From a virus, in IMG/VR virus record IMGVR_UViG_3300020125_000033, positions 1 to 20,115 of that record: a stretch of 20,115 nt of DNA. One strand, 5' to 3'. The notes beneath the pieces were generated by a model, which saw only the letters and a program-made list of their open reading frames with translations, made no database searches and had not been told where the DNA came from. The position numbers and the translations under genes were made by a program. Positions 1 through 20,115 of this stretch are shown here, in pieces. The first letter of the stretch is position 1. Every line of letters begins with the position of its first letter.

Positions 1-126
1 ACTGATGCTTCTACTACACAACAACGTAGTTGTCCAATACCTGTCGTGGTACCTGAGAGATCCGAACCGACTGCTAATAGACGCGAGTACGTTTTTCCTC
101 GGCTATCAGACAGGGAGGTTGCTAGT
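1..126 (+). other. Left edge: leader or end of an upstream gene, unresolved
   Basis: This stretch cannot be assigned securely. Frame 1 is open from base 1 without a stop and runs into the gene called at 127, so that protein could begin outside the window. Frame 3 has a stop at 3-5 (TGA) that overlaps an ATG at 5 in frame 2. TGATG junctions are common in this genome, so an upstream gene may end here. The frame opened by the ATG at 5 runs to 304, but past base 127 it reads like a shadow of the frame 1 gene. A CTGTCG motif copy lies at 41-46. No tRNA or strong hairpin was seen. Confidence 0.3.
113..118 (+). promoter_or_regulatory. Ribosome binding site GGGAGG for the gene at 127
   Basis: GGGAGG lies eight bases before the ATG at 127. 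It is the reason for choosing that start over the in-frame start at 46 or an origin outside the window. Confidence 0.6.
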
Positions 127-423
127 ATGGCAGGCTTTGATGAGGCAGAGAACTACTTCATTGAGCAGGCTCAGCGGGATATCTCGGCAGCACTTACTCG
201 CAGCTATGGTGACAAGGCAGAACTCTTTCCAGTTCGTCAGTCTCGTTGGAGTCCTGATCTGTTTGCAGGTGGCTTTATCTGTCCTTACTGTCACCAGGAC
301 GTGAGGTATGTGCCGTACTGTCGGCCAGTCGAGAGAGTCGAAGAGTCAAGAAACAAGATGGACTTCGATCCTAGTACAGTTGTGGACGCCAATCCCAACA
401 GAGCAGAACTAGGACACAGCTAA
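127..423 (+). CDS. Small Cys-containing protein of unknown function
   Basis: Predicted 98-residue protein, not recognised. The N-terminal half is acidic and helical (start MAGFDEAENYFIEQAQRDI). A short CPYC motif is followed eight residues later by a further Cys (CPYCHQDVRYVPYC, about residues 51-64), which could bind a metal ion. Three Cys and one His are barely enough for a complete zinc site, so this is a suggestion only. The start at 127 is chosen for its GGGAGG ribosome binding site. The frame is open upstream to base 1, so a longer protein is possible. It stops with TAA at 421-423, followed by a 114-base gap before the next gene. It heads the plus-strand replication block and may be an early protein. 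Confidence 0.6.
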   Translation: MAGFDEAENYFIEQAQRDISAALTRSYGDKAELFPVRQSRWSPDLFAGGFICPYCHQDVRYVPYCRPVERVEESRNKMDFDPSTVVDANPNRAELGHS

Positions 424-428
424 CTGAA

Positions 429-512
429 TGCGGGCCAGAGGTTACAGTACCCCACCCCTCATAGGGACTGTGACTGGTGTCGTGCATCTGGGAGCGGGAG
501 CGGTACCCCGCA
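429..512 (+). other. Structured intergenic RNA element with competing stems
   Basis: The gap between the first two genes can fold. A local hairpin pairs GTTACAGT (441-448) with ACTGTGAC (467-474), continues past a bulged A449 through CCC (450-452) with GGG (464-466), and has an 11-base loop. Downstream, CCCGC (507-511) can pair with GCGGG at 494-498 or with an identical GCGGG at 430-434; the long-range pairing gains one more pair, T429-A512. The two pairings exclude each other. There is no T-run, so it is not a classical terminator, and no tRNA T-loop. It may be a leader controlling the gene at 538, whose ribosome binding site (528-534) is outside the fold. Function is inferred only. Confidence 0.35.
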
Positions 513-537
513 CACATAGTCTAAGTCAGGAGAGTCA

Positions 538-930: not shown

Positions 931-933
931 CAT

Positions 934-2745
934 GTGCCGGTAGAACGGGAACTATTCGACTTCTTCGATAAGATCCTAGGTCAGAACACAGGAGTATTAC
1001 GAGTAGCTACTAGAGACAGTGAGGAAAGATTCAAGACAACTCTATTTACCTGGCCACAGAAGTCAGAAGGTGTCATACAGTTAGTCAATGATTCAGTAGC
1101 TGAGAACAAGGAGGTATACTTCTCACCAGACTTGTTTCAACCAGAGGCAATCCGACAGGGACGAGTGACAAAAGATCTCATCAAGGGATCACAAGTCATC
1201 TGTCTAGATTTTGATGGTAACGCACCACAAGATGATGGCTGGTACGCAGAGCATGATCTACCTTTGCCAAGTATCAGAGTCCAGACATCGGGAGTGGACA
1301 ATCAACATGTATATTGGAAGCTCGATGAGTTCGTGGAGGACATTGAAAAACTAGAGAACATGAGACGGACTCTTACATACACAGTACACTCTGACCCGTC
1401 TGGTTGGGATGCAGGTCAGTTACTCAGAGTCCCATACACTACCAACCACAAGTACGGCAAACCCGACAGTGCTACCTATGATGTCTTCATCGAAGAGGAT
1501 TCATCCGACAGGATCTATCCGACAGGGTCCTTCAAGACGACTGGTGACTTCAGACCATTAGTCGGTAGCGTCATAGACTTAGAGAACTTACCTGATGTAG
1601 TAGATGTCCTCACTACCAACAGCTTCGTGAGTGGATTCCTAGAGAGCTTCAAGAAGTTCCCTGATGAGAAGCACAGAAGTGACGCTCTCATGCGTGTTGC
1701 TTATGATTCAGCAGAGTCAGACCTAACCAATGAAGAAATATATTCTCTACTCTTAGATGCTGACAGTAGGTGGGGTAAGTACTATCGGAGAAAGGACAGA
1801 CAACTTCGGTATGTAGACATCATCGAGAGAGCCAAAGCTAAGTATCCTCATGGTGCTACAGAGATCAGCATTACAGATGAAGTCGAGGTTGGTTATCAGA
1901 GAGTCTATGGATGGGGTGAGTTAGTTGATTCGACTGACACTATCCAATGGTTCTTCGAGGGCTGGCTGTCGATGGGTGGATACGGGATCTTAGCAGGTCC
2001 ACCCAATGTTGGTAAGACTCAGTTAGCTCTTCGACTAGGAGTCGCCTGTGTACTACAGAAGGACTTCATAGGCTGGACGAATGAGACTGACAGAGCTATG
2101 AAAGTAGTGTTCTACTCCTTGGAGATGAGTAAACAGGCCATCAAGTATTTTCTAGATACGATGACTGATCTCCTACCGTTCAAAGATCTCCTGCAAAAGA
2201 ACTTCAAGATCCTACCTCTCGCTCAACTAGTAGACTTCAATGATAAGAAGATGCGAGAGCAAGTACTAGCAGACATCAACGAGTACCGTCCAGACTTAGT
2301 CATCATTGACAGTCTGTCGATGGCAGCAAGTGAATCACTAGCAGACGACAAGACAGCACGGAATCTCAACGCGAACATTAAAGTCATACGTAATATAGCC
2401 AAGTGTGCAGTAGTCTCAGTCCACCACAGTAAGAAGTCACAAGCAAACAAGTCGATGACCGGAGACATGGATGATCTCTATGGGTCACGGTTTATAACAG
2501 CCGAAGCCGATTTCGTCACAACGTTCTTACCAGAGTACGGCGATTCTCAAGAAGACAATGAAGCCAAGAAAGTCCATCATATTCGAGCAGTCAATACCAA
2601 GATCCGTCTAGGTCGATGGAAGTCACCAGTCAATCTGTTTAGGACAGAAACTCTCGACTTCGTAGACGAGGATCCCGATGTTGCTCTTCCAGGATTTAGC
2701 CAAGGAAAACATAGCACTGGAGATAGTTCGGAAACTATGTTCTGA
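934..2745 (+). CDS. Bifunctional DNA primase-helicase (AEP-like primase + RecA-fold ATPase)
   Basis: This 603-residue protein probably primes and unwinds DNA at the phage fork. The N-terminal half resembles archaeo-eukaryotic-type primases of the RepB/Prim-Pol group: an acidic metal motif DFD at 92-94, a TSG...H stretch at 118-125 (His125), and a basic RVPYTTNHK stretch at 165-173. The C-terminal half is a RecA/RepA-like ATPase: Walker A GPPNVGKT at 355-362, Walker B VIIDS ending at Asp459, and a VVSVHHSKK sensor-like strand at 493-501 typical of hexameric replicative helicases. The start is GTG at 934, with GGGGA just upstream overlapping the previous stop. The 3' end overlaps the DNA polymerase gene by 68 bases. 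Motif copies of CCGACAGG occur in three different reading frames inside this gene (1151, 1504, 1518). Confidence 0.85.
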   Translation: MPVERELFDFFDKILGQNTGVLRVATRDSEERFKTTLFTWPQKSEGVIQLVNDSVAENKEVYFSPDLFQPEAIRQGRVTKDLIKGSQVICLDFDGNAPQDDGWYAEHDLPLPSIRVQTSGVDNQHVYWKLDEFVEDIEKLENMRRTLTYTVHSDPSGWDAGQLLRVPYTTNHKYGKPDSATYDVFIEEDSSDRIYPTGSFKTTGDFRPLVGSVIDLENLPDVVDVLTTNSFVSGFLESFKKFPDEKHRSDALMRVAYDSAESDLTNEEIYSLLLDADSRWGKYYRRKDRQLRYVDIIERAKAKYPHGATEISITDEVEVGYQRVYGWGELVDSTDTIQWFFEGWLSMGGYGILAGPPNVGKTQLALRLGVACVLQKDFIGWTNETDRAMKVVFYSLEMSKQAIKYFLDTMTDLLPFKDLLQKNFKILPLAQLVDFNDKKMREQVLADINEYRPDLVIIDSLSMAASESLADDKTARNLNANIKVIRNIAKCAVVSVHHSKKSQANKSMTGDMDDLYGSRFITAEADFVTTFLPEYGDSQEDNEAKKVHHIRAVNTKIRLGRWKSPVNLFRTETLDFVDEDPDVALPGFSQGKHSTGDSSETMF

Positions 2746-4429
2746 TCCTCTTGTCGCTATTGATACGGAGACTAATGGACAGGACATCCGAGATGGAAGA
2801 GGTATATGCTATGGGGTGTCTATTGCCACTCCTTATGCAGCCCTGTATCTGCCATTCCGACACACCAACCAGCCAGAACAGAATTACGATCTCCGACAGT
2901 TCCTACCATTACTTCAAGAGATCCTCGACAGGGCAACTGTCATCTATCACAACGCCAAGTTTGACCTCTTGTCTCTGGAGACTCTGGGGCTCAAGGCCCG
3001 TGGCCGGAAGTTCGTAGACACTATGGTCCTGTGTCATCTGATAGATGAGAACAGGCCATTCGCAGGCAAGAGTCTAGACGCATGTACCAAGATGTACCTA
3101 GATGATGGAGGTAAGAGAAAGTCTGATGAGTACGTCGGGCTACTTAAGATCCTGGGTTATGCCAAGATGCCAGCAGACTGTACGGCAGAGTATGCCACAT
3201 GGGATGCATGGCTAACCTACCAGTTGTACCAGAAGATCCTGCCTAAGCTAAAGGCAGAACAGCTTGGCGAGATGTGGAATCACAAAGCCAAGATGATTGA
3301 ACGACTCATCTGTATGGAAGGGCACGGCACTAGCATTGACCAGCCGCTCTGTGAAGAGATGTCAGACAAAGGTCGCTACTGGATGGAGAAGATCCCAGCA
3401 CTGTTGGGTGGACTCAATCCTGGTAGTGGCAATGATCTACAGATCTTACTGCTGGACATCCTAGGTCTGCCTGTCGTCAAGACAACTCCCAAAGGCAAGC
3501 CATCGTTTGACAAGTGGGCGATGGAAGTCTATGACGACATACTTGAAAGAAGTAACGACCTAACAGCGAAGAGAGTCTTTACTTACCGTGGATGGCAGAA
3601 GTCAACAACAAGTAACTACGAACCCTACGTCCGTCTGCTCTCGCCCGATAGTCGTCTCCGGCCTGATTATCTCTTGCACGGAACGGTTACGGGACGCATG
3701 TCCTGTCGGCACCCTAATCTGCAACAGATCCCAAGGGAGGGTGATAAGCCCTGGAATGGGAGGATGAAGAGTTGCTTCATAGGTAGGCCAGGATATGTAC
3801 TGATCGAGGGAGACTACTCACAACTAGAGTTCAGACTGTCTGCCAGCTTCTCCAAGGATCCACAACTCATCGGGATCTTTAACGATGAGGAACGAGACAT
3901 CTTCACTGAGATGTCCATACTTCTAGGGATGTCTAGGTATGACACAAAGCGACTCGTCTACTGTCTTAGTTATGGTGGTGGTGCTACGCGCATCGCCGCG
4001 ATCTTTGGCGTATCTCTGTCTGAGGGTCAATCCATCAGGGACAATTTCTATCGCACGTATCCTCGTCTTAAGCATGTTGCCAAGTACGCGCAGGATTATG
4101 CTAGCAGACATCGTCAAGTGCCAATGTGGTCGGGTCGGCGTAGACATTTTCTTGACGTAAAGAAAGATGCTCACAAGGCATACAACAGTTTGACCCAAGG
4201 TGGCGCAGCAGATGTAGTCGAGAGGACTATGGTTCGCTGTGCTGAGAAGGGACTTGATGTCCCAGACTGTCGGATGTTGCTACAAGTTCATGACTCCATT
4301 GTGTGGGAGATCAGAGAAGATCTGGTTCCCTTCTACACTCCTATCATCAAGGAGACAATGGAGGCAGTGGACTATGAGTTCGGAGTGAAGTTCAAAGCGG
4401 ATGTGCACCGCTGGGCACTCGCCGCATAA
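2678..4429 (+). CDS. Family A DNA polymerase with 3'-5' proofreading exonuclease
   Basis: This 583-residue enzyme is the probable replicative polymerase. The exonuclease domain shows Exo I DTET (Asp29, Glu31), Exo II HNAKFD (Asp96) and Exo III Y172-x3-D176. The polymerase domain shows TGRMSCRHPNLQQIP, motif A DYSQLEFRL (Asp379, Glu384), motif B R420-x3-K424-x3-Y428-x3-Y432-G433, and motif C QVHDS (His538, Asp539). There is no 5' nuclease domain, as in T7-like phage polymerases; it is shorter than T7 gp5 (about 700). Tyr at the Phe762-equivalent position of E. coli Pol I matches T7 polymerase. The ATG at 2678 has GAGGA nearby and leaves a normal short lead before Exo I, at the cost of a 68-base overlap with the helicase gene. 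Confidence 0.95.
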   Translation: MLLFQDLAKENIALEIVRKLCSDPLVAIDTETNGQDIRDGRGICYGVSIATPYAALYLPFRHTNQPEQNYDLRQFLPLLQEILDRATVIYHNAKFDLLSLETLGLKARGRKFVDTMVLCHLIDENRPFAGKSLDACTKMYLDDGGKRKSDEYVGLLKILGYAKMPADCTAEYATWDAWLTYQLYQKILPKLKAEQLGEMWNHKAKMIERLICMEGHGTSIDQPLCEEMSDKGRYWMEKIPALLGGLNPGSGNDLQILLLDILGLPVVKTTPKGKPSFDKWAMEVYDDILERSNDLTAKRVFTYRGWQKSTTSNYEPYVRLLSPDSRLRPDYLLHGTVTGRMSCRHPNLQQIPREGDKPWNGRMKSCFIGRPGYVLIEGDYSQLEFRLSASFSKDPQLIGIFNDEERDIFTEMSILLGMSRYDTKRLVYCLSYGGGATRIAAIFGVSLSEGQSIRDNFYRTYPRLKHVAKYAQDYASRHRQVPMWSGRRRHFLDVKKDAHKAYNSLTQGGAADVVERTMVRCAEKGLDVPDCRMLLQVHDSIVWEIREDLVPFYTPIIKETMEAVDYEFGVKFKADVHRWALAA

Positions 4430-4446
4430 CGGTAAGGAGATAGACA

Positions 4447-4659
4447 GTGGCTGACTACAACTACTTCATGGAGAAGAACGATTCAGAGGATGATGAGAAG
4501 TGGCCGCTGGCTGTTGTCTCTGTCTACTCTGACGGCTCTCTGTCTATCTCCGGCCGTGCGGATATGTCTATGCGAGAAGTCGCAGCACTGCTACACATCG
4601 TCTCACATGACATGGTCGAAACTCTCGACAGAAGAGAAGAGAAGGCCAAGGAGAATTGA
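4447..4659 (+). CDS. Small acidic protein of unknown function
   Basis: Predicted 70-residue protein, not recognised. It has an acidic N-terminus, then a beta-like stretch (WPLAVVSVYSDGSLSISG) and a helical C-terminus rich in Glu and Lys (HDMVETLDRREEKAKEN). No Cys, membrane segment or catalytic motif is seen. The GTG start at 4447 has a strong AAGGAGA at 4434-4440 with a six-base spacer. Its stop (4657-4659) overlaps the ATG of the next gene by one base (TGATG), so the two are likely translated together. It follows the polymerase by 17 bases and belongs to the same replication operon. A DNA-mimic or accessory role is possible but unsupported. Confidence 0.75.
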   Translation: MADYNYFMEKNDSEDDEKWPLAVVSVYSDGSLSISGRADMSMREVAALLHIVSHDMVETLDRREEKAKEN

Positions 4660-4931
4660 TGCTAGAAAACTGGGGAGTCTATGTCACCACAGTTGACCGA
4701 CCTGCTGTCGGTGGAGAGTTGCTCTGCTCAACACACTGGACTCAGTACGGTGCAGAGGTTAATGCCCATGAGAATCAGAAGATGGCAGACTTAGAAGGAT
4801 ATGATCAGATGTACTACATCAAAGCACTGAAAGGACCTTTCGCACAGTGGAGCTTTCACTACCCTTCCTGGCATTCCTCGACCTCGAAACTACCGGGTTG
4901 GATCCGGCGGCTGATATTATTCTTGAGATAG
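4659..4931 (+). CDS. Small protein of unknown function overlapping the exonuclease gene
   Basis: Predicted 90-residue protein, not recognised. The first 60 or so residues look like a normal coding sequence (start MLENWGVYVTTVDRPAVGG), with one Cys and several Tyr and His. The last 28 residues (from about 4848) are read from DNA that also encodes the catalytic start of the next gene, so they may be functionally neutral. The ATG at 4659 has AAGGAGA at 4648-4654 and a TGATG junction with the previous gene. The 85-base overlap with the exonuclease is the longest in the window. A frameshifted fusion to the downstream protein cannot be excluded. Confidence 0.65.
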   Translation: MLENWGVYVTTVDRPAVGGELLCSTHWTQYGAEVNAHENQKMADLEGYDQMYYIKALKGPFAQWSFHYPSWHSSTSKLPGWIRRLILFLR

Positions 4932-5458
4932 GTATTGTCCTCACCGACAGAAACTTGGAGACACTCGCAGTCTTCGATAGAGTTGTCTGTTGGCCAGAGC
5001 TTAGATACAATCCCGCTCTTCAGGAGATGGAGATTCCGTTCGGTGTGCATGACAAGGTAGTTGAGATGCATACCAAGAACGGACTCTGGGAAGAGAGTTA
5101 CCGTTCGACAAAGGATCTCGAAGCCTGTCTAGCTGATGCTGCTTACTGGATGGGACAGCACACATCCGGCTTGGACTATCAGGTATTCATGGCAGGCAAC
5201 ACTATCGGATTCGACAGGCAGTTCCTCTACATGGCTGACTTTAAGTTCCTGGAACTATTCCATCACAGGTCTGTAGATGTCAGTTCTATTCGTACTCTCT
5301 ATGAAGAGTGGGTCACGAAGGAGTATGACTACGCAACCAACGCCATACCTGCCGACAATGACTTGCACCGTGCGATACCAGACTGTCACGACAGTATCAA
5401 CAAACTGAAGTTCTTCCGCAAATCACTCTTCGGAATCAACAGGGACATCCATGCCTAG
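4847..5458 (+). CDS. Oligoribonuclease-like DEDDh 3'-5' exonuclease
   Basis: This 203-residue protein belongs to the DnaQ/RNase T superfamily and most resembles oligoribonuclease (Orn). The opening FLDLETTGLDPAADIILEIG (Asp12, Glu14) matches Orn's LEMTGLDP...ILEIA pattern. The central NTIGFDRQFL (Asp123) resembles Orn's NSI..DRRFL, followed by an FHHRSVDVSSI stretch. His174 and Asp179 have the five-residue spacing of Orn's catalytic His and Asp, and the end INKLKFFRKSLF resembles AELRYYREHF. Orn cleaves 2-5-mer RNAs to mononucleotides. Here it could recycle RNA fragments for DNA synthesis or remove short signalling oligonucleotides; both are inference. The start is GTG at 4847 with a weak AAAGGA upstream. 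Length is close to bacterial Orn (about 180). A general DnaQ-type proofreader is the alternative. Confidence 0.8.
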   Translation: MELSLPFLAFLDLETTGLDPAADIILEIGIVLTDRNLETLAVFDRVVCWPELRYNPALQEMEIPFGVHDKVVEMHTKNGLWEESYRSTKDLEACLADAAYWMGQHTSGLDYQVFMAGNTIGFDRQFLYMADFKFLELFHHRSVDVSSIRTLYEEWVTKEYDYATNAIPADNDLHRAIPDCHDSINKLKFFRKSLFGINRDIHA

Positions 5459-5705
5459 TACCCGAGAAGCAGAGTATGATTCTGAAGGAAGACTCATCAC
5501 ATTCGAGGGAGAGCTAACGAAGCTACTCAACAGATTCGGTTGGGATCAGACAACTATGACTCCCGACTTCCTGTTATCTTCTATGGTACTAGGTATGCTC
5601 AACTCCTACAACATGTGCAGATCACGGAGAGACAAGTGGTGGGACTTCAGACCAGAGATTAAGTACAAGGTACCCACTACTAAGAAGGAAGCTGATGGTG
5701 TCTGA
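5451..5705 (+). CDS. Small protein of unknown function
   Basis: Predicted 84-residue protein, not recognised. An acidic first third (EAEYDSEGRLITFEGE) precedes a helical stretch (FLLSSMVLGMLNSYNMC) and a basic, Trp-containing tail (RSRRDKWWDFRPEIKYKVP). The ATG at 5451 has AGGGA at 5441-5445, overlaps the end of the exonuclease gene by eight bases, and its own end overlaps the resolvase gene by 11 bases, so it is embedded in the operon. The basic tail could contact nucleic acid or a partner enzyme, but there is no direct evidence. Confidence 0.75.
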   Translation: MPSTREAEYDSEGRLITFEGELTKLLNRFGWDQTTMTPDFLLSSMVLGMLNSYNMCRSRRDKWWDFRPEIKYKVPTTKKEADGV

Positions 5706-6159
5706 TGTCGAGTTAGCTTGGGGGTTTGATCCTGGATACTCGACAGGATGGGCATTGTTGAATTGGGTAGATGGGGAACAGTTAGACGAAGGGACTATCC
5801 CATTCCCTGACATGCCAGAGTTTTTGTTCGACAAAGGTGAGATGCTAGAAAGAACGAGAGCCATTGTCGTAGAGGACTTCGCTCTACGCGGGGGGAAAGA
5901 GAAGGCACAGATTGGATCACACTTCGAGACAGTCCAGGTCATTGGAATGCTACGGCTGTGGGCAGCCAGCGCCGGACTGTCTATCCACTTGCAAGCCCCA
6001 AGTATCAAACCTATTGCTCAGAGGTTTACTGGGAGAGTGCCTAAAGGCGCGCATTCTAAGTCCCACTCAGTTGATGCATACAACCATGTGGCCTACTATC
6101 TCAAGGGAATTGGACACTTCGAGACTAGATATGAACGAGAGTTACGGGAAGCACCATGA
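5695..6159 (+). CDS. RuvC-like Holliday junction resolvase
   Basis: This 154-residue protein has the RNase H-fold plan of RuvC resolvases. Motif I is WGFDPGYSTGWALL (Asp12), motif II is AIVVEDFAL (Glu60, Asp61), and motif III is SHSVDAYNHVAYYL (His124, Asp127, His131). These acidic residues bind the two metal ions that cleave four-way DNA junctions. The length equals the family's usual 150-180. In a phage it would resolve replication and recombination intermediates before packaging. The ATG at 5695 has AAGGAAG just upstream. The stop overlaps the next ATG (ATGA, 6156-6159). HxxD in place of RuvC's DxxD in motif III is a variation I believe also occurs in other phage RuvC-like proteins. Confidence 0.85.
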   Translation: MVSDVELAWGFDPGYSTGWALLNWVDGEQLDEGTIPFPDMPEFLFDKGEMLERTRAIVVEDFALRGGKEKAQIGSHFETVQVIGMLRLWAASAGLSIHLQAPSIKPIAQRFTGRVPKGAHSKSHSVDAYNHVAYYLKGIGHFETRYERELREAP

Positions 6160-6324: not shown

Positions 6325-6571
6325 CATTAGCTCGCAACTCAAGTCGAGTAGCCCGAGTGGTACCTCCCCATACTCCATAGGCATCCTGTCGGAGAGCCTC
6401 CAGGAGACACTTGGTTTTGATTGGACAGTCTCTGCAATAGTCAATCATCATGCGGAGATTGTCTTCCACCTTTGGGGAGAACGACAGTTCGTAGGCGCGT
6501 GGGTTTTCCCGACACGCAGCCATTGCGTTGTCCATGTGGAGTAAGCTACCATCAGATTCGTTGGATACCAA
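6317..6571 (-). CDS. WhiB-family iron-sulfur transcriptional regulator
   Basis: This 84-residue protein shows the WhiB signature: Cys20, then C46-x2-C49-x5-C55, the four ligands of a [4Fe-4S] cluster, followed by GVWGG (66-70) and a basic C-terminus (TTRATRLELR) that binds DNA. WhiB proteins bind the vegetative sigma factor to change transcription. The mycobacteriophage TM4 WhiB is known to repress host whiB2, block septation and exclude superinfection; a similar host-takeover role is plausible here. TTG at 6571 is chosen because AGGGTCGG lies five to six bases upstream. An ATG 12 codons later would still keep all four Cys. It is the last gene of the virion operon, 17 bases after the dead NlpC gene. 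Confidence 0.92.
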   Translation of the reverse strand: MVSNESDGSLLHMDNAMAACRENPRAYELSFSPKVEDNLRMMIDYCRDCPIKTKCLLEALRQDAYGVWGGTTRATRLELRANGL

Positions 6572-6588: not shown

Positions 6589-7050
6589 TCAGATACCTCC
6601 GGGATTAGCCTCCGCTGGGGGTATCTGGGCTTCTTCTGGTTGTGGAGCATTACCAGTGATGATGACTGGCATACCGAACACATTGTCTTGTGGAGTTAGA
6701 TCACGAGTTCTGTTGGTTCCATAGAACCTCTCCATAATCTTACGGTTGCCAAGATAGATGGCAGCCTGTCCGACATACTGTCCATCACCTTGTTGTCCAC
6801 CATGCCATCCTACCAAATCCCCTGGCTTGAGTCTAGCAACAGAGTCTTGGTACCCTGCTAGAGACACAGGCATACTAATTCCCATAGAGGCATAGACATT
6901 CCCAGCCATGTCTGGTTCTTCTCTTGCCTTGGCGACACTAGCCAACAGTTGACTGCGGACTTCACCAGGAGCAGGCATTGGCTCTGGCTGTTGCTGATCT
7001 GGCCCGACAGGTGGTTGCTGAGTCGGATCAGGCTGTTGCGGGTCAGTCAT
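6589..7050 (-). CDS. Degenerate NlpC/P60-like protein lacking catalytic residues
   Basis: Predicted 153 residues. After a Pro/Gln-rich N-terminus (1-30), residues 51-107 match the NlpC/P60 domain of the gene just upstream: VYASMGISMP against VYSKMGISMP, LKPGDLVGW against LQPGDLVAF, and GQAAIYLGN against SHIAIYIGN. The DCSG motif carrying the nucleophile is missing or reads DMAG, and there is no Cys anywhere. The catalytic His is Gln95; the third position (Glu107) is kept. The active core YVWGG is also absent. It is therefore probably a duplicate kept as a non-enzymatic wall-binding or structural protein. ATG at 7050 overlaps the previous stop by one base (TGATG); a GTG at 7053 is possible. 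No signal peptide is seen. Confidence 0.8.
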   Translation of the reverse strand: MTDPQQPDPTQQPPVGPDQQQPEPMPAPGEVRSQLLASVAKAREEPDMAGNVYASMGISMPVSLAGYQDSVARLKPGDLVGWHGGQQGDGQYVGQAAIYLGNRKIMERFYGTNRTRDLTPQDNVFGMPVIITGNAPQPEEAQIPPAEANPGGI

Positions 7051-12295: not shown

Positions 12296-13992
12296 TATCC
12301 ACCTGTGCCCTTCATCGCATTCCAGTACTGCAAGGCAATGTCAATTACCTTGTTCTGATCCATGTTGGGAGTAGCTGCTTGTACTTCTTGCATGAACTGT
12401 GTGAAGTTGTTGCCAGAGTATCCCTTGCCAGCAGACATCACATTCTGGACATTGTTGGCGATAGTGTCTCCATCAGCACCGTACTTGGCCTGTGCAACTG
12501 CACGAGCCTTAGCAGGTCCAGAGAAGTCAGTCTGTGTCAGTCCACCACCAGCCTGAGCAGCAGCAGCCTTCTGAGTTTGTGCATCCTTCTGCAACTGGAT
12601 CTGTGCAGCAGTGTTCTGATTGTCGATCTCTTGTTGGTTATACTTCTGCTGTGCATTCCACTTATCCAAGATAGCCTGCTGTGCAGCAGTCTGTCCTTGA
12701 ACCGACAGACCAGCGTTAGAAGTCTGAACTCCTAGATCCTGTTGAGTCAGATTCTGTCCGATGTCGATAGCCTTGTTGGCCTTGTCAGTCTGGATCCCAG
12801 CAATCTGCTGGTCTACAGCTTGTTGTGCCTGACCTTCTTGATTGAGACTGTTCTCCTGAGCGACAGTGCCACTAGTCCGAGCCACATCCTGTCGGTTAGC
12901 ATTGAGGTTGTCTTCACCCTGCTGCTGTTGACCAAAGTAGTTCTGGACTGCGTTAGTGTTCGCACCAGTCATCCCCTGTAGCCATGCCTGGTCATTGGCA
13001 GATGCCTGATTGTTTACCGGAACAGCAGCATCTAGTCCCAGTTTCTTGGCTGTTTCAGCAACATTCTGTTGCCCACTCTGGTACCCCTGACCAATAGACT
13101 GTTGTAGAGCCGCGCCTCTTTGTCCGACATCAGCCTTCTGCGCATCGTACTGAGCGTGAGAGTCTGCCGCAGTCTTAGCAATGTCGTTGACCATGTTCGA
13201 GTATAGTCCCGACAGAACTTGACGAGCCCGTTGACCCTGTTGTCCGATGTTAGTCTTCGAGGCTGCAAGACTATCAAGGACAGGTTTGAACGCACTGTCA
13301 GCAATGCGCGTTGCATCTGCTGTGAAGTCTTTCGGAGTGATGACTGGAGTCTGGATAGGATCGAGGGTAGGATAGTCAAACCCTTTCTCTTCTCCTGCTC
13401 CATCTGGAGTGAATGGAACATAGCCCTTCGGGAACGGATTGGCAGCAGATCCGAGGTTAGTTCCGAATGGACCACCGAAAGAGTTGTAGTCCATGCCTCC
13501 ACCCTTGGGACCTGGCTTGTCAGCCCCAATGAGCTTGGTCATGTCGAGCTTCTGGTTCTGCTGAGACATCGGAACAGTTGTTGCCATTCCATGTCCAGGC
13601 AGAGTTGCAAGAGACTTCTGTTGTGGAAGACTATCGACATAACTCTTTGGTGCGACAGACCTCTTACCTCCTGCGAAGTCTACATTAGCAGCAGCAGACT
13701 TAGCGACAGGATTGCCAAAGCCATAGAAGTCAGCCCACGTAGTGTTACTCGCAGGATTTAGTGCGCCGAAGAATGTACCCCAACCACCAGCAGTCTTAGG
13801 ACTGGTACCGAGAGCACCTGTCTGTTCTGCCTTGCCGAACTGTGACTGAGGATCAGTTCCAAGAGTCTTCTGTGCATTGTTCATCAGTGCAGTATTAGCA
13901 GTACCTGAACTGATCTGTTGAATCTGTCCAGCAGTGAATCCTGCTTTCTTGAGAGCAGCGATGTCAGCAGGGGATAGCTGCTTTGGTGCCAC
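12295..13992 (-). CDS. Gln/Ala-rich coiled internal virion protein
   Basis: Predicted 565 residues, no family recognised. The N-terminal third is Gly/Pro/Lys-rich and probably flexible; residues about 230-480 are rich in Gln, Ala, Asn and Asp with few hydrophobics (for example GQQGQRARQVLSGLYSN and QQEIDNQNTAAQIQLQKDA), typical of long helical bundles. The C-terminus (GNNFTQFMQEVQAATPNMDQNKVIDIALQYW) resembles a small helical domain. There is no Cys or membrane segment. Its place between the 314- and 1358-residue proteins parallels T7 gp15, a Gln-rich ejection protein. GTG at 13992 follows the previous stop by two bases, with AGGTGG upstream. Confidence 0.75.
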   Translation of the reverse strand: MAPKQLSPADIAALKKAGFTAGQIQQISSGTANTALMNNAQKTLGTDPQSQFGKAEQTGALGTSPKTAGGWGTFFGALNPASNTTWADFYGFGNPVAKSAAANVDFAGGKRSVAPKSYVDSLPQQKSLATLPGHGMATTVPMSQQNQKLDMTKLIGADKPGPKGGGMDYNSFGGPFGTNLGSAANPFPKGYVPFTPDGAGEEKGFDYPTLDPIQTPVITPKDFTADATRIADSAFKPVLDSLAASKTNIGQQGQRARQVLSGLYSNMVNDIAKTAADSHAQYDAQKADVGQRGAALQQSIGQGYQSGQQNVAETAKKLGLDAAVPVNNQASANDQAWLQGMTGANTNAVQNYFGQQQQGEDNLNANRQDVARTSGTVAQENSLNQEGQAQQAVDQQIAGIQTDKANKAIDIGQNLTQQDLGVQTSNAGLSVQGQTAAQQAILDKWNAQQKYNQQEIDNQNTAAQIQLQKDAQTQKAAAAQAGGGLTQTDFSGPAKARAVAQAKYGADGDTIANNVQNVMSAGKGYSGNNFTQFMQEVQAATPNMDQNKVIDIALQYWNAMKGTGG

Positions 13993-13994
13993 AG

Positions 13995-14939
13995 TTACAC
14001 CACCTGTCGTTGAATTGTTGCAGTGCTAGTGTCCTTCGGGACAGCAGAGAGATCAATGCCATACTTGGATGCAATCCGCGACACAGCATCAGTCAGAGCC
14101 GATTGTCTCGTTGCATCTTGGGAAGAGCCAAAGGTCGAGAGTGCCTGTGCCTGAGTGTTGACATTATCATTCCGAGCCGTGTCCAGACTCGCCTTACGAT
14201 CCCCGAAGTCTCTGTCGATGTCCGACAGGGAGTTGACATAGAGTCCAGAATGCAGCATCCCTCTTCCGGCGAAGTCTCCTTCGTCAGCAGTGACAGAGTC
14301 TCCGTAAGCTCCGGGACGGTACCTGTCGAACTTTCCGGCAGTCTGATCCCATCCCATTCTTCGCTTAGCATCATTCCAACCGAAGTCATACTGGTTTCTT
14401 GCCAGTCCCTGTTGAGCCTCGAAATCAGCTCTAGCTCTCGCAAGATCTCCGACTGTTCGTTGATAGTTCTCGTCTGATGCCGCTCCGGGGATAGTGACAT
14501 TCTCCATGACTGGAGCAGGAGGAGCGAAAGAAGCAGCACTAACACCGACACTACCACCGCCTCCGCCTGCACTACCTCCACCACCACCACCACTACTCCC
14601 TCCACCACCGGAAGAGCCTCCCCCACCAGAGCTAGTAGTCTGTCCAGAAGATGTTGGAATGTTTACCTTTGGAGAAGAGACAGTCTTTGGAGCAAGAGTG
14701 CTGCCTTTGCCTTTGGGAAGATTGTCATTGGTACTCTTCGCCACAGGCTTGGGAGCAGGCGGCGGGACATATGCAGGTTGGATTCTCGGCGGAGCAGTTG
14801 TCTGAACAAAGCCAGCCTGCTTGTTGGCGTTGTTAATGACTCCCTGCATGATAGTTGGCTTGGGAGGCTGTGGCTTGTTGAGTGGATTCACCCAGCCAGG
14901 CTGTGCATAACTAGGAGCACCGGGAATGTACCCTGCCAT
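13995..14939 (-). CDS. Virion protein with Pro-rich head and Gly-Ser linker
   Basis: Predicted 314 residues. Residues 1-100 are Pro/Lys-rich and probably disordered. Residues 105-130 are an almost pure Gly-Ser linker. The rest is helical and contains GRGMLHSGLYVNSLSDIDRDFGDRKASL (about 225-255), a style of motif seen in minor structural proteins of many actinophages (recognised by eye only). In operon position it parallels the small internal core protein (T7 gp14) that precedes gp15 and gp16. ATG at 14939 overlaps the previous stop (TGATG); a GTG at 14942 would add one residue. Function is inferred from context. Confidence 0.7.
   Translation of the reverse strand: MAGYIPGAPSYAQPGWVNPLNKPQPPKPTIMQGVINNANKQAGFVQTTAPPRIQPAYVPPPAPKPVAKSTNDNLPKGKGSTLAPKTVSSPKVNIPTSSGQTTSSGGGGSSGGGGSSGGGGGGSAGGGGGSVGVSAASFAPPAPVMENVTIPGAASDENYQRTVGDLARARADFEAQQGLARNQYDFGWNDAKRRMGWDQTAGKFDRYRPGAYGDSVTADEGDFAGRGMLHSGLYVNSLSDIDRDFGDRKASLDTARNDNVNTQAQALSTFGSSQDATRQSALTDAVSRIASKYGIDLSAVPKDTSTATIQRQVV
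14550..14627 (-). repeat. Gly-Ser linker coding repeat
   Basis: Twenty-six codons encode GGGGSS-GGGGSS-GGGGGG-SA-GGGGGS. All four Gly codons (GGT, GGA, GGG, GGC) and several Ser codons are mixed, so the repeat appears to be kept at protein level and is not a recent slippage product. It produces a long Pro-rich shadow frame on the plus strand. Confidence 0.85.
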
Positions 14940-15127
14940 CACTTCCCGCCCTTCTTCTTAGTCATCAAGTTAATGATGGCTTGTTTCTTGGCACTCTTGT
15001 CACTGTCCTCCGCAGCTTCTTCCTTAGCTGTCGGTGGATGTCCTGCTCTTGCCTCTGCTCTGTCTTCCGGATCATCCAGAAGAGAACTCTTGCCCTTGGA
15101 CTTTAGCCAAGGAGGTTGCCCAGCCAT
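14939..15127 (-). CDS. Small highly charged virion-operon protein
   Basis: Predicted 62 residues, not recognised. It is dominated by Lys, Asp, Glu, Ala and Ser (DDPEDRAEARAGHPP; SDKSAKKQAIINLMTKKKGGK) with a basic end. It is probably a disordered or helical minor protein. ATG at 15127 overlaps the previous TAA (TAATG) and its TGA overlaps the next ATG, so it is coupled on both sides. It may be a DNA-contacting or scaffold-like peptide, but there is no direct evidence. Confidence 0.7.
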   Translation of the reverse strand: MAGQPPWLKSKGKSSLLDDPEDRAEARAGHPPTAKEEAAEDSDKSAKKQAIINLMTKKKGGK

Positions 15128-15270
15128 TACTTACCAGCCTTCTGTGAGTTGTCCTTGGCCTTTGCCATACTGATAAGGATAGCTTGAGCCTGTGCTCTCT
15201 TGTTACCAGTCATACCCTCAAGAGTATAACCTTCCTGTCCTGGCTCTCTTCCGTTCTTATCTATAGGCAT
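15127..15270 (-). CDS. 47-residue protein of unknown function
   Basis: The frame from ATG at 15270 to TAA at 15127 encodes 47 residues, start MPIDKNGREPGQEGYTLEGM, with an Ala/Lys/Gln-rich helical second half ending DNSQKAGK. The ATG overlaps the TGA of the preceding 30-residue gene (TGATG), and the TAA overlaps the next ATG (TAATG). AGGCGG lies about eight bases upstream. The frame is open further upstream, but no ATG, GTG or TTG occurs there before an in-frame stop, which fixes the start. Its small, charged, Gly-containing composition resembles the neighbouring 62- and 88-residue proteins. Confidence 0.7.
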   Translation of the reverse strand: MPIDKNGREPGQEGYTLEGMTGNKRAQAQAILISMAKAKDNSQKAGK

Positions 15271-15362
15271 CAGACGTGCCGCCTGTAACCTACCAATGCC
15301 AGGAGAAGGAGGATAGTCGTCTCGATGACAATGATGAGAAGAAAGATCGTCGTGGTGTCCAC
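15270..15362 (-). CDS. 30-residue single-pass membrane protein
   Basis: GTG at 15362 to TGA at 15270 encodes a 30-residue protein. Residues 6-25 are almost wholly hydrophobic (IFLLIIVIETTILLLLALVG), interrupted by Glu14 and two Thr, and the end YRRHV is basic, predicting N-out/C-in insertion. A full AGGAGG (15372-15377) sits nine bases before the GTG. The start overlaps the previous stop (TAGTG) and the stop overlaps the next ATG (TGATG), so it is coupled like its neighbours. Candidate roles are a tiny holin-like or lysis-timing peptide, or an inner-membrane partner of the ejection proteins; neither is proven. The strong ribosome site and junctions argue against a chance frame. Confidence 0.7.
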   Translation of the reverse strand: MDTTTIFLLIIVIETTILLLLALVGYRRHV

Positions 15363-15628
15363 TACTGTTGACCTCCTAGATATGCCTGACTCATGTAGTT
15401 ACCAGCCTGTGCAGCCTGCATTCTCTTCAAGACTGCTTCTCGGCGTGCTCTTTGTTCTTGATCTCTCTGTTGGTATCCCTGCATTCCTTCAGAAGAGACA
15501 GGACCCATAGTCGCCTGAGTCCCACCACTGGGTCCATACTGTTTCGCACCAGCAGCATAAGGGTTGAATCCGCCACCGGCTTTCTTCATCCCCATCTGTT
15601 GGACGGTGTCTCGCCAGGGCTCGGTCAT
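15362..15628 (-). CDS. Small Gln/Gly-rich virion-operon protein
   Basis: Predicted 88 residues, not recognised. Residues 1-50 are Gly/Met/Ala-rich with aromatic residues (GGGFNPYAAGAKQYGPSGG). Residues 50-75 form a charged helix (QQRDQEQRARREAVLKRMQAAQ). ATG at 15628 overlaps the stop of the nozzle gene (ATGA). Its end overlaps the next start by one base. It is probably a minor virion or assembly protein, by position only. Confidence 0.7.
   Translation of the reverse strand: MTEPWRDTVQQMGMKKAGGGFNPYAAGAKQYGPSGGTQATMGPVSSEGMQGYQQRDQEQRARREAVLKRMQAAQAGNYMSQAYLGGQQ
15372..15377 (-). promoter_or_regulatory. Ribosome binding site AGGAGG for the 30-residue membrane protein
   Basis: AGGAGG on the minus strand, inside the last codons of the 88-residue gene, nine bases from the GTG at 15362. 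It is the main support for that very short gene. Confidence 0.7.
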
Positions 15629-17328
15629 GAGGTCTCTTTCACTACCCCTTCCTTATGCTTGATGAATACAGTTAGATCATATATCCGAAGTGATGCATCT
15701 GCAATACCGCCATTGCTGATGACATCGAAGGAGATAGTAAAGTAGACCTGTCGGAACCTGACTTTCTTGAGTAACTTGATGAACTTACGTGCATACCTGC
15801 CAAGAGTTGGCAAGACTGTCTCTGCAATGATGACTGGAGTGTTACTGGCCCACGCTTGTTTAGCGTTAGCTGCTGCACTCCAAGTACTGTACTGAGTCTT
15901 AGCCTCGCTGTAAGTCATGTTCTTTCGAGCATTGGGAATGATGAGACTAGTGCTGAACTTGCCTGATGTTGCGACAGCAATGCCCCACCAGAAGATCACC
16001 TTGAATGTGTGCGGTGCATCGAAGTCATAAGTCTTGGTAGTGAGTTTACCTTGGAAGACTTCGATAGTTGATCCTACAGCGCCCACATCATCGGTAGTTC
16101 GTATGTCTTGGAAGTAATAAGCCTCTGTCGGCTTGGACTGTGATGCTGTTGTGGTATAGGCAGTGTCAAGTCCGACAGTAGCTGAGGGAATCACTACCAC
16201 CTTGGAGAACTTCCGAGTACTGACCCAGCTACTCCATCTCTTTACGCGAAGAGAGAAGACATAGAGATTCTTGAAGTATCTGACGAAGAGACGGTCTCTG
16301 TGTATGGTGAGCCCATACTGATCCTTGGAGAATAGATCAAGGTCTGATACCTGCTCCATGTTAATGGAGGTTGAAATGCGGTTGTATGTGTACTGGAAGA
16401 GTTCATAAACAGCGTTGTCATGCAGTGAGTAGATGGTATTGTTGTTATACACCACCACACAGTTGATCGCTGGTACTCCGACAGTTGCGTCAACCTCATT
16501 TAACTCAGCCTTGCGAGGGTCTGTCGTGTATGTGAATCTATGAGTCGAGTGCTCCTTAAACAGTATGAGGTCATTTCCAAGTCGTACAAGAGATACGAGC
16601 TTCTGACCGTTACCAGGAGCGACATCCACGAAGTCAGTGCTTGTCCAACTAGATGGATCACCGGCAGCAGAGAAGGAGAAACGAGAAGTGTTGGAGGTTG
16701 CTCCGATACCACAGGCAACCCATATCCTCTCTCGGTACTGTGCAACTGCCTCTCCCCTCGGCATTGTTGCAACTGCGGTCCAGGTAATACTTGTCGGAGT
16801 TGGAGCATCAAAGTATCCACCGCCACCTGTGCTTGCATTTTGAGCAACAACCCAGAGTTTGTTTCCATACTGGATACAACAGACAGTGTCGATGCCATCA
16901 TGATATGCAGCACCACCACCACCGATCTGACCAGTAGCCGCATCAACACACATGACTCTGTGAAGAGTAGGCAGATATGCGACAATGAACTTGCGTCCAT
17001 CAGACGGCAAGTAAGTACCAATGAAGGACCAGTTGTCAGTGTTGGTAATGCCAGTAGTCGTGAACAGATTGATCTGAGGTCTGTTGACTAGAGATCCATC
17101 TGTGTCAACTTCCATGTTGGTGAGTTCATACAACTCATCATTCTGGATGAACTCTCCGGAACCTGATGAGTTGTGCAGACCACCAATGAATGGTCCGAGC
17201 TTGGTAGCTACGCCACCAATGTAGAAAGCCTTCTGGTCAGGATCGAACCTAGTCCCGTAGATAGAACTGGTAGCTGACTGTTGAGAAGTTGTAGGGTTGA
17301 CGGCAGACTGTGCAAGAGGATTTGTCAT
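15625..17328 (-). CDS. Tail nozzle protein (T7 gp12 / tail tubular protein B-like beta-propeller)
   Basis: Predicted 567 residues, rich in beta-strands and aromatic residues. It has the repeated propeller-like pattern of podovirus nozzles: NKLWVVAQN, YRERIWVACG, RFSFSAAGDPSSWTSTDFVDVAPGNG, LVRLGNDLILFKEHSTHRFTY, NNTIYSLHDNAVYEL and HRDRLFVRYFKNLYVFSL. The phrase about a sample with date-stamp-like SAAGDPSSW is typical of phage stabilisation/nozzle proteins. It would form the distal six-fold end of the tail tube that opens when DNA leaves. It directly follows the adaptor gene with an ATGA overlap, the order seen in T7 (gp11-gp12). The last 120 residues look like a separate beta-sandwich. No enzyme motif is seen. 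Confidence 0.82.
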   Translation of the reverse strand: MTNPLAQSAVNPTTSQQSATSSIYGTRFDPDQKAFYIGGVATKLGPFIGGLHNSSGSGEFIQNDELYELTNMEVDTDGSLVNRPQINLFTTTGITNTDNWSFIGTYLPSDGRKFIVAYLPTLHRVMCVDAATGQIGGGGAAYHDGIDTVCCIQYGNKLWVVAQNASTGGGGYFDAPTPTSITWTAVATMPRGEAVAQYRERIWVACGIGATSNTSRFSFSAAGDPSSWTSTDFVDVAPGNGQKLVSLVRLGNDLILFKEHSTHRFTYTTDPRKAELNEVDATVGVPAINCVVVYNNNTIYSLHDNAVYELFQYTYNRISTSINMEQVSDLDLFSKDQYGLTIHRDRLFVRYFKNLYVFSLRVKRWSSWVSTRKFSKVVVIPSATVGLDTAYTTTASQSKPTEAYYFQDIRTTDDVGAVGSTIEVFQGKLTTKTYDFDAPHTFKVIFWWGIAVATSGKFSTSLIIPNARKNMTYSEAKTQYSTWSAAANAKQAWASNTPVIIAETVLPTLGRYARKFIKLLKKVRFRQVYFTISFDVISNGGIADASLRIYDLTVFIKHKEGVVKETS

Positions 17329-17957
17329 TCGTACTCACTATCACTTGCAACCCAAAAAGAACCGATCATGTTCTTCTCAGCGTTAGTAGCCTCAGTGAGT
17401 TTGTCCTCGAACATCTTCCGACTGACCTGATTGGCTGGCCAGTCTTCGTCCATCTCATATGCCTTGGACATGACATACTCACAGACCCGATCATAGTACC
17501 TGTCGGGAACTCCTAGCGGGTCACTGGTCAGAGCTACCGACACAGGGACTTTGCTGTAGTTCACCGAGATCTGCTTGGTATCAGTGGGAATCGGCCAGAG
17601 ATAGATCTGGTTTGCCCATGTGTACCAGAACAGTGGAGTTCCCTTGGTGTTGTTATCAGCACCTAGTTCTGTCCGGATACTCTCAAAGCTCTGTGGTTCC
17701 AGAATGTTTCCATCGTACATGATAGATTCAATCTGGATCATGTCTGGTGGGATAGAGTATGTCTGCTGATTCGCTACAGCCGACTGAGTAGCGACAGCCT
17801 GAATCATTGGGTTCTTGTTGACAATCTCCATCTGTGCCTGATTGACCCACCTGATGATGTCAGGGTCAGTCAGTTGCACACCAGACTCATCACCGAACTG
17901 TCGCTTGACATATGTCATCACATCCGACAGGGTGTGGATCGCGGTAGGTGTAGGCAC
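17325..17957 (-). CDS. Tail adaptor protein (T7 gp11 / tail tubular protein A-like)
   Basis: Predicted 210 residues. A helical N-terminus (LSDVMTYVKRQFGDE...LTDPDIIRWVNQAQMEIVNKNP) is followed by a beta-rich core (QTYSIPPDMIQIESIMYDGNILEP; TPLFWYTWANQIYLWPIP) and a helical end (YYDRVCEYVMSKAYEMDED). This is the layout of podovirus head-tail adaptors that sit under the portal. The start is set at GTG 17957: GGAGGG (17962-17967) lies four bases upstream and the codon overlaps the previous stop (TAGTG). An upstream TTG at 17969 would add four residues and coincide with the ribosome site, so it is less likely. It is followed by the nozzle gene with an ATGA overlap. Confidence 0.83.
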   Translation of the reverse strand: MPTPTAIHTLSDVMTYVKRQFGDESGVQLTDPDIIRWVNQAQMEIVNKNPMIQAVATQSAVANQQTYSIPPDMIQIESIMYDGNILEPQSFESIRTELGADNNTKGTPLFWYTWANQIYLWPIPTDTKQISVNYSKVPVSVALTSDPLGVPDRYYDRVCEYVMSKAYEMDEDWPANQVSRKMFEDKLTEATNAEKNMIGSFWVASDSEYE

Positions 17958-18406
17958 TATTCCCTCCAAGTCTTCCCGTTATGCTTGAAGGTGTTCAGTC
18001 GAGTCTTGAGAGCCCACTCTCCGAACTCCCACTTCTCTGCTGCTCTGTCTTCAATCTCCTTCTCAGCCAGGAGTTGAGCAGCCATCTGAGAAGCCTGCAT
18101 CTCTTTCCAGATGATGTCAGGATCTCTCTTGTCGAAGTCGTTGGCAATCAGTCGAGCGATGACACGCTCGTCAAGTTCCGCTTCTGTGAGGTAGAAGACG
18201 ACCTGGTCAGACCCATCGTCATGGAAGTAGACGACACAGTAAGGGAACACATCAACAGGGTCCCGACTCTCTGGAGGAATCCAGGCAAGTGCAAGTCGAG
18301 GGTCATACTCATGGATGATGGTAGCGATTCTTTCGTGCTTTGCATTGACGAATCGTCCAGCCTCTTCGTTGTATCGGTAGTTACTGCCGAACAGTGGATG
18401 GCTCAC
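17957..18406 (-). CDS. Virion-operon protein of unknown function
   Basis: Predicted 149 residues, not recognised. The N-terminal half is mixed alpha/beta (NEEAGRFVNAKHERIATIIHEYDPRLALAWIPP; YCVVYFHDDGSDQVVFYL). The C-terminal half is a long charged helix (AQLLAEKEIEDRAAEKWEFGEWALKTRLNTF) that could be a coiled coil. GTG at 18406 has GGAGGG upstream and a GTGA overlap with the previous gene; its TAG overlaps the adaptor start by one base. Lying between the receptor-binding protein and the tail adaptor, it may be a tail accessory or assembly protein. Confidence 0.78.
   Translation of the reverse strand: MSHPLFGSNYRYNEEAGRFVNAKHERIATIIHEYDPRLALAWIPPESRDPVDVFPYCVVYFHDDGSDQVVFYLTEAELDERVIARLIANDFDKRDPDIIWKEMQASQMAAQLLAEKEIEDRAAEKWEFGEWALKTRLNTFKHNGKTWRE
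17962..17967 (-). promoter_or_regulatory. Ribosome binding site GGAGGG deciding the adaptor start
   Basis: GGAGGG on the minus strand, four to five bases before GTG 17957. It overlaps the alternative TTG start at 17969, which it therefore disfavours. Confidence 0.65.
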
Positions 18407-20115
18407 CGCTCTATCCCTCCTGGGAAGTTCCGAATCCCTGCTGCGATACGCATGTCTGCCATGCTTCCAGAGTAGGTCTTAGTCAGATACATATACTCCA
18501 AGTCTGTATCTGTCAGAGTAGATGTAGCTGGCAATCCTAGCAGTGACAGATAGTTCTGCCTTCTGTTCTCCATGACAGACCACAGAGGATTATCCACTGT
18601 TCCTCCACCACCACTGGCAGTAGTAACCAGCTTCATCATGGCCAACTGGCCCATCTGAGCAATGCGAGTGTTGCCAGCATCTGTCGGATGAGTGTTGTCG
18701 CCACCAATGAAGTTGGCTACGTCAGTTGCATCTCGGAGCATTGGTCCGATAGTTCCGAGAGATGCACCAGTCTTGTCATAGCAGTTGCCGTTGTACGGAG
18801 AGTAGAATGGAATCCCCTTAGCAGCACACTCTTCTCGGAACACCTGATCGTGAGACACAACAGTAGCTGTCGGATTAACTGACGGACTCCAGGTACCCCA
18901 CACATAGATCTCAGTGTTGGGGAACAGAGTCTTCAAGCTGGCGTACAACTGTTGAGCAGCAGTTCTCACAGCAGCATCAGTTGAGCCGATGTCATTGGTA
19001 CCGGCAAACACAATGACTATGTTTGGACTCCAGTTCAAGACATCTTGAATGCGAGCCTGGAGATTCTCAGTAGTGGTACCAGGACTTGCGCCTCTGTTTA
19101 TGTATCCCGTCCCACCAATCGCAATGTCCCATATGTCGTCGATTCCACAGTACTTGTCGAAGAGTTGTTTCCAAGTTCCGTTGGCAAGTCCTGTCGTGTA
19201 TGCCGCGCCATTAATGATCGAATCCCCGAATAGCAGACACCGCACAGTCGGAAAAGGAGCAGCAGCAATAGTGTTGCCAGCGCCCAGGAACACACCACCA
19301 AAGTGATGGTACGCATGGTCAAGGTCAATTCTCCTAGTCGCACTAGTTGGGAAAGTGACCTTCCAGACAAACCTACCGCCAGCACTCACACCTGTTGTCA
19401 CGACAGGGAGTGCAGTGTATCTCTTGCCATCAATGCGCATCCGAATAGATCCAGCAGCATTGGCGAAGTAGTACAGAATCTCGAACTCAGTACCTGTATG
19501 CATGAACGACTCACCACAGTTAGTAGGAGTCGCATAGGCATAGCTATACCGACTATTCGGTGCCATGACTGTCGTGAATGGGAATGGAGATCCATAGACA
19601 AATCCAGCGGCACCGCGATACTTGAACTTGGGATCTGTCGGTGCAGTCAGTACACCACCAGAAATAGTCGTTGTCGCTTGTGCAGTGATGAGAATGGTCG
19701 GAGTCTCAGTCGACAGGACATCACAGGATGCCTGAGACGGGAAAGTCATCTTCGTAGTTGTCCACGCAGGCACAGGGACATTGACAATCTGCATCGCCCA
19801 GCCATTAGTACTGGCAGCGTTCAGAGTCAGAGTACAGTCACCAGTGTTACCAGCACCAGCATTGACGAACTCACCGAGATAGAATGCAACCTGTCCGTTG
19901 TTGGAGACATTGTCATCCTGATAGACAAGCTGTGTAATAGCTGCACCATTGGTGTTGGTACATGAGACGACTGCTGTCGCACTGATAGACCTGTCGCTTC
20001 CCAGTACCCAACAGGTAACTCCTGCCGCAGCAGCGACAGATGGTGCAACAGAGAATGCCTGAGAGACTCCGTTACGAGTGGCAATAGTTCCAACAGTCAC
20101 ATCACTAGTGAAGAA
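18403..20115 (-). CDS. Receptor-binding tail protein with SGNH/GDSL hydrolase domain (start outside window)
   Basis: The frame is open to the window edge, so the true start is upstream of 20115; the GTG at 20100 used for numbering is only the first start codon. Residues about 1-280 are Thr/Ser/Gly/Ala-rich beta structure, as in tail fibres or spikes. Residues 287-492 are an SGNH hydrolase: block I FGDS (Ser294), block II GG (Gly329/330), block III GTND (Asn369), and block V DNTHP (Asp468, His471). This fold removes acetyl or other ester groups from sugars and lipids. I infer that it trims an O-acetylated cell-surface glycan during adsorption. The C-terminal 70 residues (TASGGGGTVDNPLW...) may attach to the tail. 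The first gene of the visible operon, it sits just ahead of tail genes. Confidence 0.85.
   Translation of the reverse strand, partial: FFTSDVTVGTIATRNGVSQAFSVAPSVAAAAGVTCWVLGSDRSISATAVVSCTNTNGAAITQLVYQDDNVSNNGQVAFYLGEFVNAGAGNTGDCTLTLNAASTNGWAMQIVNVPVPAWTTTKMTFPSQASCDVLSTETPTILITAQATTTISGGVLTAPTDPKFKYRGAAGFVYGSPFPFTTVMAPNSRYSYAYATPTNCGESFMHTGTEFEILYYFANAAGSIRMRIDGKRYTALPVVTTGVSAGGRFVWKVTFPTSATRRIDLDHAYHHFGGVFLGAGNTIAAAPFPTVRCLLFGDSIINGAAYTTGLANGTWKQLFDKYCGIDDIWDIAIGGTGYINRGASPGTTTENLQARIQDVLNWSPNIVIVFAGTNDIGSTDAAVRTAAQQLYASLKTLFPNTEIYVWGTWSPSVNPTATVVSHDQVFREECAAKGIPFYSPYNGNCYDKTGASLGTIGPMLRDATDVANFIGGDNTHPTDAGNTRIAQMGQLAMMKLVTTASGGGGTVDNPLWSVMENRRQNYLSLLGLPATSTLTDTDLEYMYLTKTYSGSMADMRIAAGIRNFPGGIER

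Follow-up and report, generated by a model that had tools for sequence, protein, structure and literature searches.

A short word dispersed over both strands of an uncultured phage contig is probably recognized on the template by the AEP-type primase that the phage encodes

We analysed a 20,115-base IMG/VR contig from an uncultured phage (IMGVR_UViG_3300020125_000033; this whole stretch, an incomplete contig, is called the window below) and found the hexamer CTGTCG and its complement CGACAG scattered along it in large excess. The 75 copies lie between positions 41 and 20039, with 39 on the + strand and 36 on the - strand. The probable explanation, to which we assign a probability of about 0.8, is that the AEP-type primase encoded by the phage itself recognizes 5'-(C)CTGTCG(G)-3' on single-stranded template DNA and starts there, 5'-CTGTCG-3' being the proposed core on each strand. 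The support for a priming word is indirect and comes from independent directions, namely gene association, a match to published motifs, the domain structure of the protein and strand-specific spacing.

An exact recount gave the 39 CTGTCG and 36 CGACAG that an earlier sequence-only reading of the window had counted by eye, and its six copies of the decamer TCCGACAGGG were likewise recovered (at 1151, 1518, 8736, 10476, 14221 and 17923). First- and second-order Markov models predict 12.2 and 17.2 copies of the two hexamers together, against the 75 seen. CTGTCG is the top 6-mer of the window and CCGACAGG/CCTGTCGG the top 8-mer, with 10 and 8 copies, respectively, on the + strand (18 against 0.5-0.8 expected, or 0.9 per kb). 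The reversed word GGACAGCC, used as a control, has no copy in the window, and the one-base variants of CCGACAGG inside the CGACAG core have 0-2 copies each. Read as CCTGTCGG, the octamer sites lie on the + strand at 3702-3709, 6385-6392, 7823-7830, 10373-10380, 10811-10818, 12888-12895, 15747-15754 and 17499-17506, and on the - strand at 1152-1159, 1505-1512, 1519-1526, 7004-7011, 8470-8477, 8737-8744, 10477-10484, 12183-12190, 14222-14229 and 17924-17931.

Most copies of the hexamer (68/75) are located in coding sequences, 29 of them on the coding and 39 on the non-coding strand, and the three sense frames hold the word 13, 12 and 14 times, an even use. Shuffling synonymous codons left 17.1 ± 3.6 copies in the coding sequences, and a stricter shuffle that kept the bases at codon junctions left 26.1 ± 4.2, compared to 68 observed; the highest count in 300 shuffles of each type was 40. 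The enrichment is genuine, beyond chance and codons. Selection at the DNA level had been proposed earlier, with three copies read in three frames of the primase-helicase gene as an example, and both the proposal and the example are borne out. The same reading took a near-palindrome, TGTCCGACA, as a hint of a half-site. The sequence is present, at 6767, 12180, 13121 and 14219, the last as previously placed and the two before it displaced by 3 and 1 from the earlier positions (12183 and 13122). A palindromic site with half-sites was nevertheless rejected, since the reverse complement of TGTCCGACA was never found and CTGTCC is not enriched (25 copies against 24 in the stricter shuffle).

Words of the same shape accompany the primase gene in related phages, as checked in a panel of phages mostly chosen for encoding a relative of the window primase. 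A DNA search of a phage collection with the window gave zero matches; the kin of the window phage include the Arthrobacter podovirus Jasmine, the Microbacterium phage Shocker and the Cellulosimicrobium phage DS1. The related contigs G001 (39.6 kb), G002 and G649 share both leading words with the window, CTGTCG ranking first among their 6-mers and CCTGTCGG among their 8-mers. DS1 also carries CTGTCG, Jasmine, Casserole and Adat carry CTGTGG, and ctEqG8 carries CTGTAG. The word is GTGTGG in Troje, SheckWes, NoShow, FF47, Serratia phage Tlacuache and Yersinia phage P744, GTGTGGCC in Sansa, Renzie, Koji and Schubert, and GTGTGC in Anansi. Where contigs or phages have a homologous primase, their top 7-mer usually contains TGT[A/C/G]G, and such a word ranks first in six contigs that were retrieved solely by primase homology (L335, G651, L337, G652, G653 and L342). 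In seven control phages without this primase (T7, TM4, Bxb1, phiC31, lambda, P22 and D29), the best 7-mer of this type ranks 3-75. The counting procedure recovered the promoter words of T7, and the top word of D29, ACTTGACA, resembles the stoperator core. When 30 phage proteins were used as queries, the AEP primase and polA alone turned up in every complete or near-complete primase-bearing record, and polA is also present in the word-less controls T7, Bxb1, phiC31 and D29. Anansi shares just the AEP-helix bundle part of the protein (residues 9-324), yet has its GTGTGC word. On the primase tree the GTC lineages do not form one group, with G651 (GTC) placed among GTA phages.

The proposed reader of the word is the product of the primase-helicase gene (934-2745, + strand), recognized by PHROGs DNA primase and helicase matches, Pfam AAA_25/DnaB_C, fold matches and the tracking of the word among relatives. 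Based on structural models, it is predicted to be an AEP primase with a helix bundle like that of RSF1010 RepB', fused to a helicase of the RSF1010 RepA type. We used AlphaFold models of the whole product and of its first 313 residues (pLDDT 81.6). The fold of the primase model matched S-2L PrimPol (6zp9, Z 18.4) and RepB' (3h25, Z 16.7); RepB' 3h20 aligned over residues 2-300, helix bundle included, with a root-mean-square deviation of 18, probably because the domains differ in placement, and the match to the pRN1 primase (9aam), lower in the match list, spans residues 1-309. A sequence search of PDB with the primase matched no primase, whereas these fold searches did. The AEP catalytic domain (residues 1-205; 934-1548, + strand) contains D92 and D94 (LDFDG), H125, D159 and R165; in alignments D94, D159 and R165 are invariant or nearly so, D92 is nearly invariant and H125 is present. 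The catalytic acidic pair, the His/Gln and Arg motifs, the AEP fold and the following helix bundle are thus all found. The helix bundle domain, expected to be the template-reading part, covers residues 235-303 (1636-1842, + strand), with helices at 245-261, 266-280 and 289-303 in the model. The hexameric helicase domain (residues 337-586; 1942-2691, + strand) has a RecA-like core, and the best match of the C-terminal part is RSF1010 RepA (1olo, Z 22.7 over 217 residues).

Published motifs of AEP primases have a similar layout. The helix bundle of the pRN1 primase reads GTG in the template 5'-CTGTGCTCA, and synthesis starts just 5' of GTG, ATP pairing with T and dGTP next with C (PMC11009956). 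The NrS-1 primase prefers GTGG/GTGA, and CCTG is read by BcMCM and TthPrimPol (PMC8718748). In the ssiA site of RepB', the proposed start is a GTG (PMC4434180). The phage words (C)CT-GTC-G, CT-GTG-G, CT-GTA-G and GT-GTG-G follow this layout with the third base altered in some lineages, the word carrying GTC in the window lineage and GTG in relatives.

The spacing of the words is strand-specific in relatives. In ten phages with GTG words, same-strand pairs were depleted at distances below 100 bp (8 against 50 expected) and at 100-200 bp (13 against 50), whereas opposite-strand pairs were as frequent as at random (39 against 43 and 45 against 43, respectively). Summed below 200 bp, there were 21 same-strand pairs against 100 expected and 84 opposite-strand pairs against 85. 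The coefficient of variation of the per-strand gaps was as low as 0.30-0.58 (random about 1), below nearly all or most control words of equal number, and the gaps averaged, in most cases, about 1 kb on one strand against about 2 kb on the opposite strand. When strand labels were permuted with positions fixed (3000 draws), none of the draws matched the pattern in Anansi, and P was 0.001 for FF47, 0.026 for Jasmine and 0.06 for Koji, a result that speaks for strand specificity in Anansi, FF47 and Jasmine. In the window, same-strand pairs closer than 300 bp numbered 26 against 40.5 expected (P 0.005), and opposite-strand pairs 38 against 41.3. Exclusion confined to the same strand would not be foreseen with a double-strand-binding protein, but it is what one would expect of a primase requiring a site roughly once per kb of single-stranded template. 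In the GTG relatives the strand bias is maintained through both arms of transcription, the coding strand not being steadily preferred, and plots of word polarity for the window lineage showed no clear switch.

Individual copies of the word are replaced over time. Of 47 aligned word positions in the window and G001, 23 were kept, against 11 expected from the same genes (P 6.5e-5), a conservation about twice that of hexamers generally; the other half have turned over at similar density. Selection therefore appears to act on the frequency of the word rather than on individual copies.

We propose that the helicase moves 5' to 3' on the lagging-strand template, that the helix bundle reads GTC(G) on this template, and that the primer would begin just 5' of GTC(G), where A would pair with T and the next nucleotide, G, with C. 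The primer would then be extended by the phage polymerase, probably the family A enzyme encoded at 2678-4429 (+ strand; Pfam DNA_pol_A). Word copies would be kept at Okazaki-fragment intervals on each strand, selection retaining copies on both strands where they arise, often at synonymous sites, while lost ones are replaced. By chance an 8-base site is far too rare to provide an Okazaki start per kb, so that selection would have to maintain the copies. Sister lineages may have retained (C/G)T-GT and changed the bases that follow (GTG, GTA, GTAAAG), and the window lineage would read GTC in place of GTG.

Several observations weigh against a priming word. The motif published for the class is GTG, rather than GTC or GTA. 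Within the window, the permutation of strand labels gave P 0.095, a weak spacing signal, and in the window lineage the gap variation was not significant (pooled Fisher P 0.27 for CTGTCG in seven contigs). Gibbous has the primase and only a weak word (rank 8), the main word of Shocker is CTGTAAAG with CCTGTCGG second, and among short contigs with primase homologues L340 and L341 have weaker TGT[A/C/G]G words and L343 has none. The TGT[A/C/G]G pattern was picked after part of the panel had been seen, which makes the contigs found by homology alone the sole later test, and the panel phages are related, so their counts are not independent. In an 11-member clade, helix-bundle residue 283 is Tyr with GTC and Phe with GTA or GTG; this is one of two such columns among 353, and the co-variation in these alignments is therefore only a hint.

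Among alternatives, the word could be a Chi-like signal that protects or recombines phage DNA through a recombination nuclease of the host or a Cas4-like exonuclease of the phage. Chi acts per strand, the word is short, asymmetric and dense, and several relatives encode a Cas4-like exonuclease and an AAA ATPase. However, even same-strand spacing is not needed for Chi, and Cas4 homologues went undetected in Anansi, Gibbous and the available sequence of G651 and G652, although Anansi, G651 and G652 have words. Nor was the word enriched in the actinobacterial genomes sampled: in 250 Microbacteriaceae and 396 Actinomycetota genomes (about 646, a few being in both sets), CCGACAGG reached at most about 0.16 per kb, and stretches sampled from four genomes in which its ratio to the reversed control was high were not enriched against a Markov model. 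We regard a Chi-like role as unlikely. Dispersed sites for a repressor or nucleoid protein, as in stoperators, are somewhat less likely again. The octamer sites per genome are similar in number to the stoperators of L5, and lineage-specific changes of the word resemble immunity groups. On the other hand, stoperators are mainly intergenic and oriented with transcription, while the window word is mostly genic, equal in its two orientations and shifting in position; exclusion in relatives affects the same strand and not the opposite one; and no repressor gene was identified in the window by PHROGs or Pfam, the contig being incomplete. Both candidates had been raised by the sequence-only reading, and both fit poorly because the sites are mainly coding and on both strands, half of them turn over at constant density, and spacing in relatives is strand-specific. 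That reading was right about DNA-level selection, listed as further candidates a motif for packaging or segregation proteins and a host-wide word, the latter failing in the genomes sampled, and did not consider the primase-helicase as the likely reader.

It is very improbable that the word serves another replication protein travelling with the primase, such as a single-stranded-DNA-binding protein, clamp loader or resolvase. Strand-specific spacing shows merely that a single-strand process reads the site, but, apart from the primase, polA was the one protein tested that all word-bearing phages share, and word-less phages have polA too; moreover, the word matches the published motif of the primase class. 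Equally improbable is a host-wide word absorbed by the phage, or a mutational or codon bias: phages do tend toward host composition, but the sampled host scans were negative, the Microbacterium-phage word GTGTGGCC is outnumbered by its reversed control in the majority of 40 Microbacteriaceae, the codon shuffles fail, and the word varies between related phages. Scans of genome and viral collections for triple words, tried as a host finder, mostly returned copies in clusters that look like repeats, probably coding ones such as Pro-Thr-Gly, and so could not point to a host.

A primase recognition site is a known kind of element, and the priming word proposed here can be compared with several systems. 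Like L5 and D29 stoperators, it is asymmetric and has many copies per phage genome; stoperators are repressor sites, mostly intergenic, whereas the window sites are mostly in genes and on both strands. T7 gp4 is also a phage primase-helicase using a short template word, with a primase of the TOPRIM fold, unrelated to AEP, and the top words of T7 are not of the TGT[A/C/G]G type. RSF1010 RepB' and RepA, the nearest folds for the two halves of the window protein, are separate proteins; RSF1010 carries a single 40-nt hairpin site on each strand and replicates only by leading-strand synthesis, in contrast to tens of dispersed 6-8-base sites per strand. The pRN1 ORF904 primase of a Sulfolobus plasmid likewise combines an AEP domain and a helix bundle; it reads GTG, with A and G as the first nucleotides, where the window word has GTC, its replicon is a small plasmid, and the accessible part of its description mentions no genome-wide enriched word (PMC11009956). 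The primase-polymerase of phage NrS-1 is a phage AEP with a helix bundle and a helicase part. Its primase also reads TTTGGTTA (PMC8718748), which occurs only twice in the NrS-1 genome (PMC7102993).

The window carries rightward genes at 934-6159, for the primase-helicase, polymerase, an exonuclease and a resolvase-like protein, and leftward virion genes at 6589-20115. The simple repeat CACCACCA is also enriched in it (13 copies against 1). In Shocker (L281), two priming-like words coexist, CTGTAAAG with 45 copies and CCTGTCGG with 25; C precedes every TTTACAG, and the copies of CTTTACAG all point in the same direction over the stretch that leads from about 40.7 kb across the terminal repeat to 4.3 kb. 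In G649 (L301), the 8-mer CCGACAGG is strongly strand-biased (15 against 2) and the hexamer is not (34 against 25). The weak word of Gibbous (L302, L303, L371) is GGTGTGG, with recent word loss or a changed specificity as possible explanations. In G652, the primase frame (L338, 710-2490) appears broken by a frameshift or an assembly error: its long open part covers only about the last 423 residues, and the homology begins upstream of this part. Two strong words of phiC31 (L363-L364) are unexplained, CTACTCAC with z 39.5 and CCCAGG with z 19.7.

Beyond the window, it seems fairly likely that phages with AEP primases shape their genomes around a lineage-specific priming word at per-strand, Okazaki-length spacing, that its third base was switched among G, A and C along the primase tree, and that sequence alone reveals both primase specificity and the use of forks. 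A literature search, subscription papers aside, found no previous description of primase sites that are enriched or regularly spaced in the genomes of phages, and the terms 'motif' and 'over-represented' are absent from the Jasmine genome paper; the genome-wide, evenly spaced, lineage-coded phage form seems to be undescribed in the accessible literature. As far as that literature goes, GTC and GTA would be new recognition motifs for this primase class. If the proposal is true, lagging-strand start sites would be mappable base by base in uncultured phages from word counts, and strand bias and spacing would show which way forks run and how long the fragments are. How primase specificity evolves could be studied on sequences, with dozens of natural experiments at hand, and the unexplained actinophage words CTGTGG, GTGTGGCC and CTGTAAAG would join one testable class.

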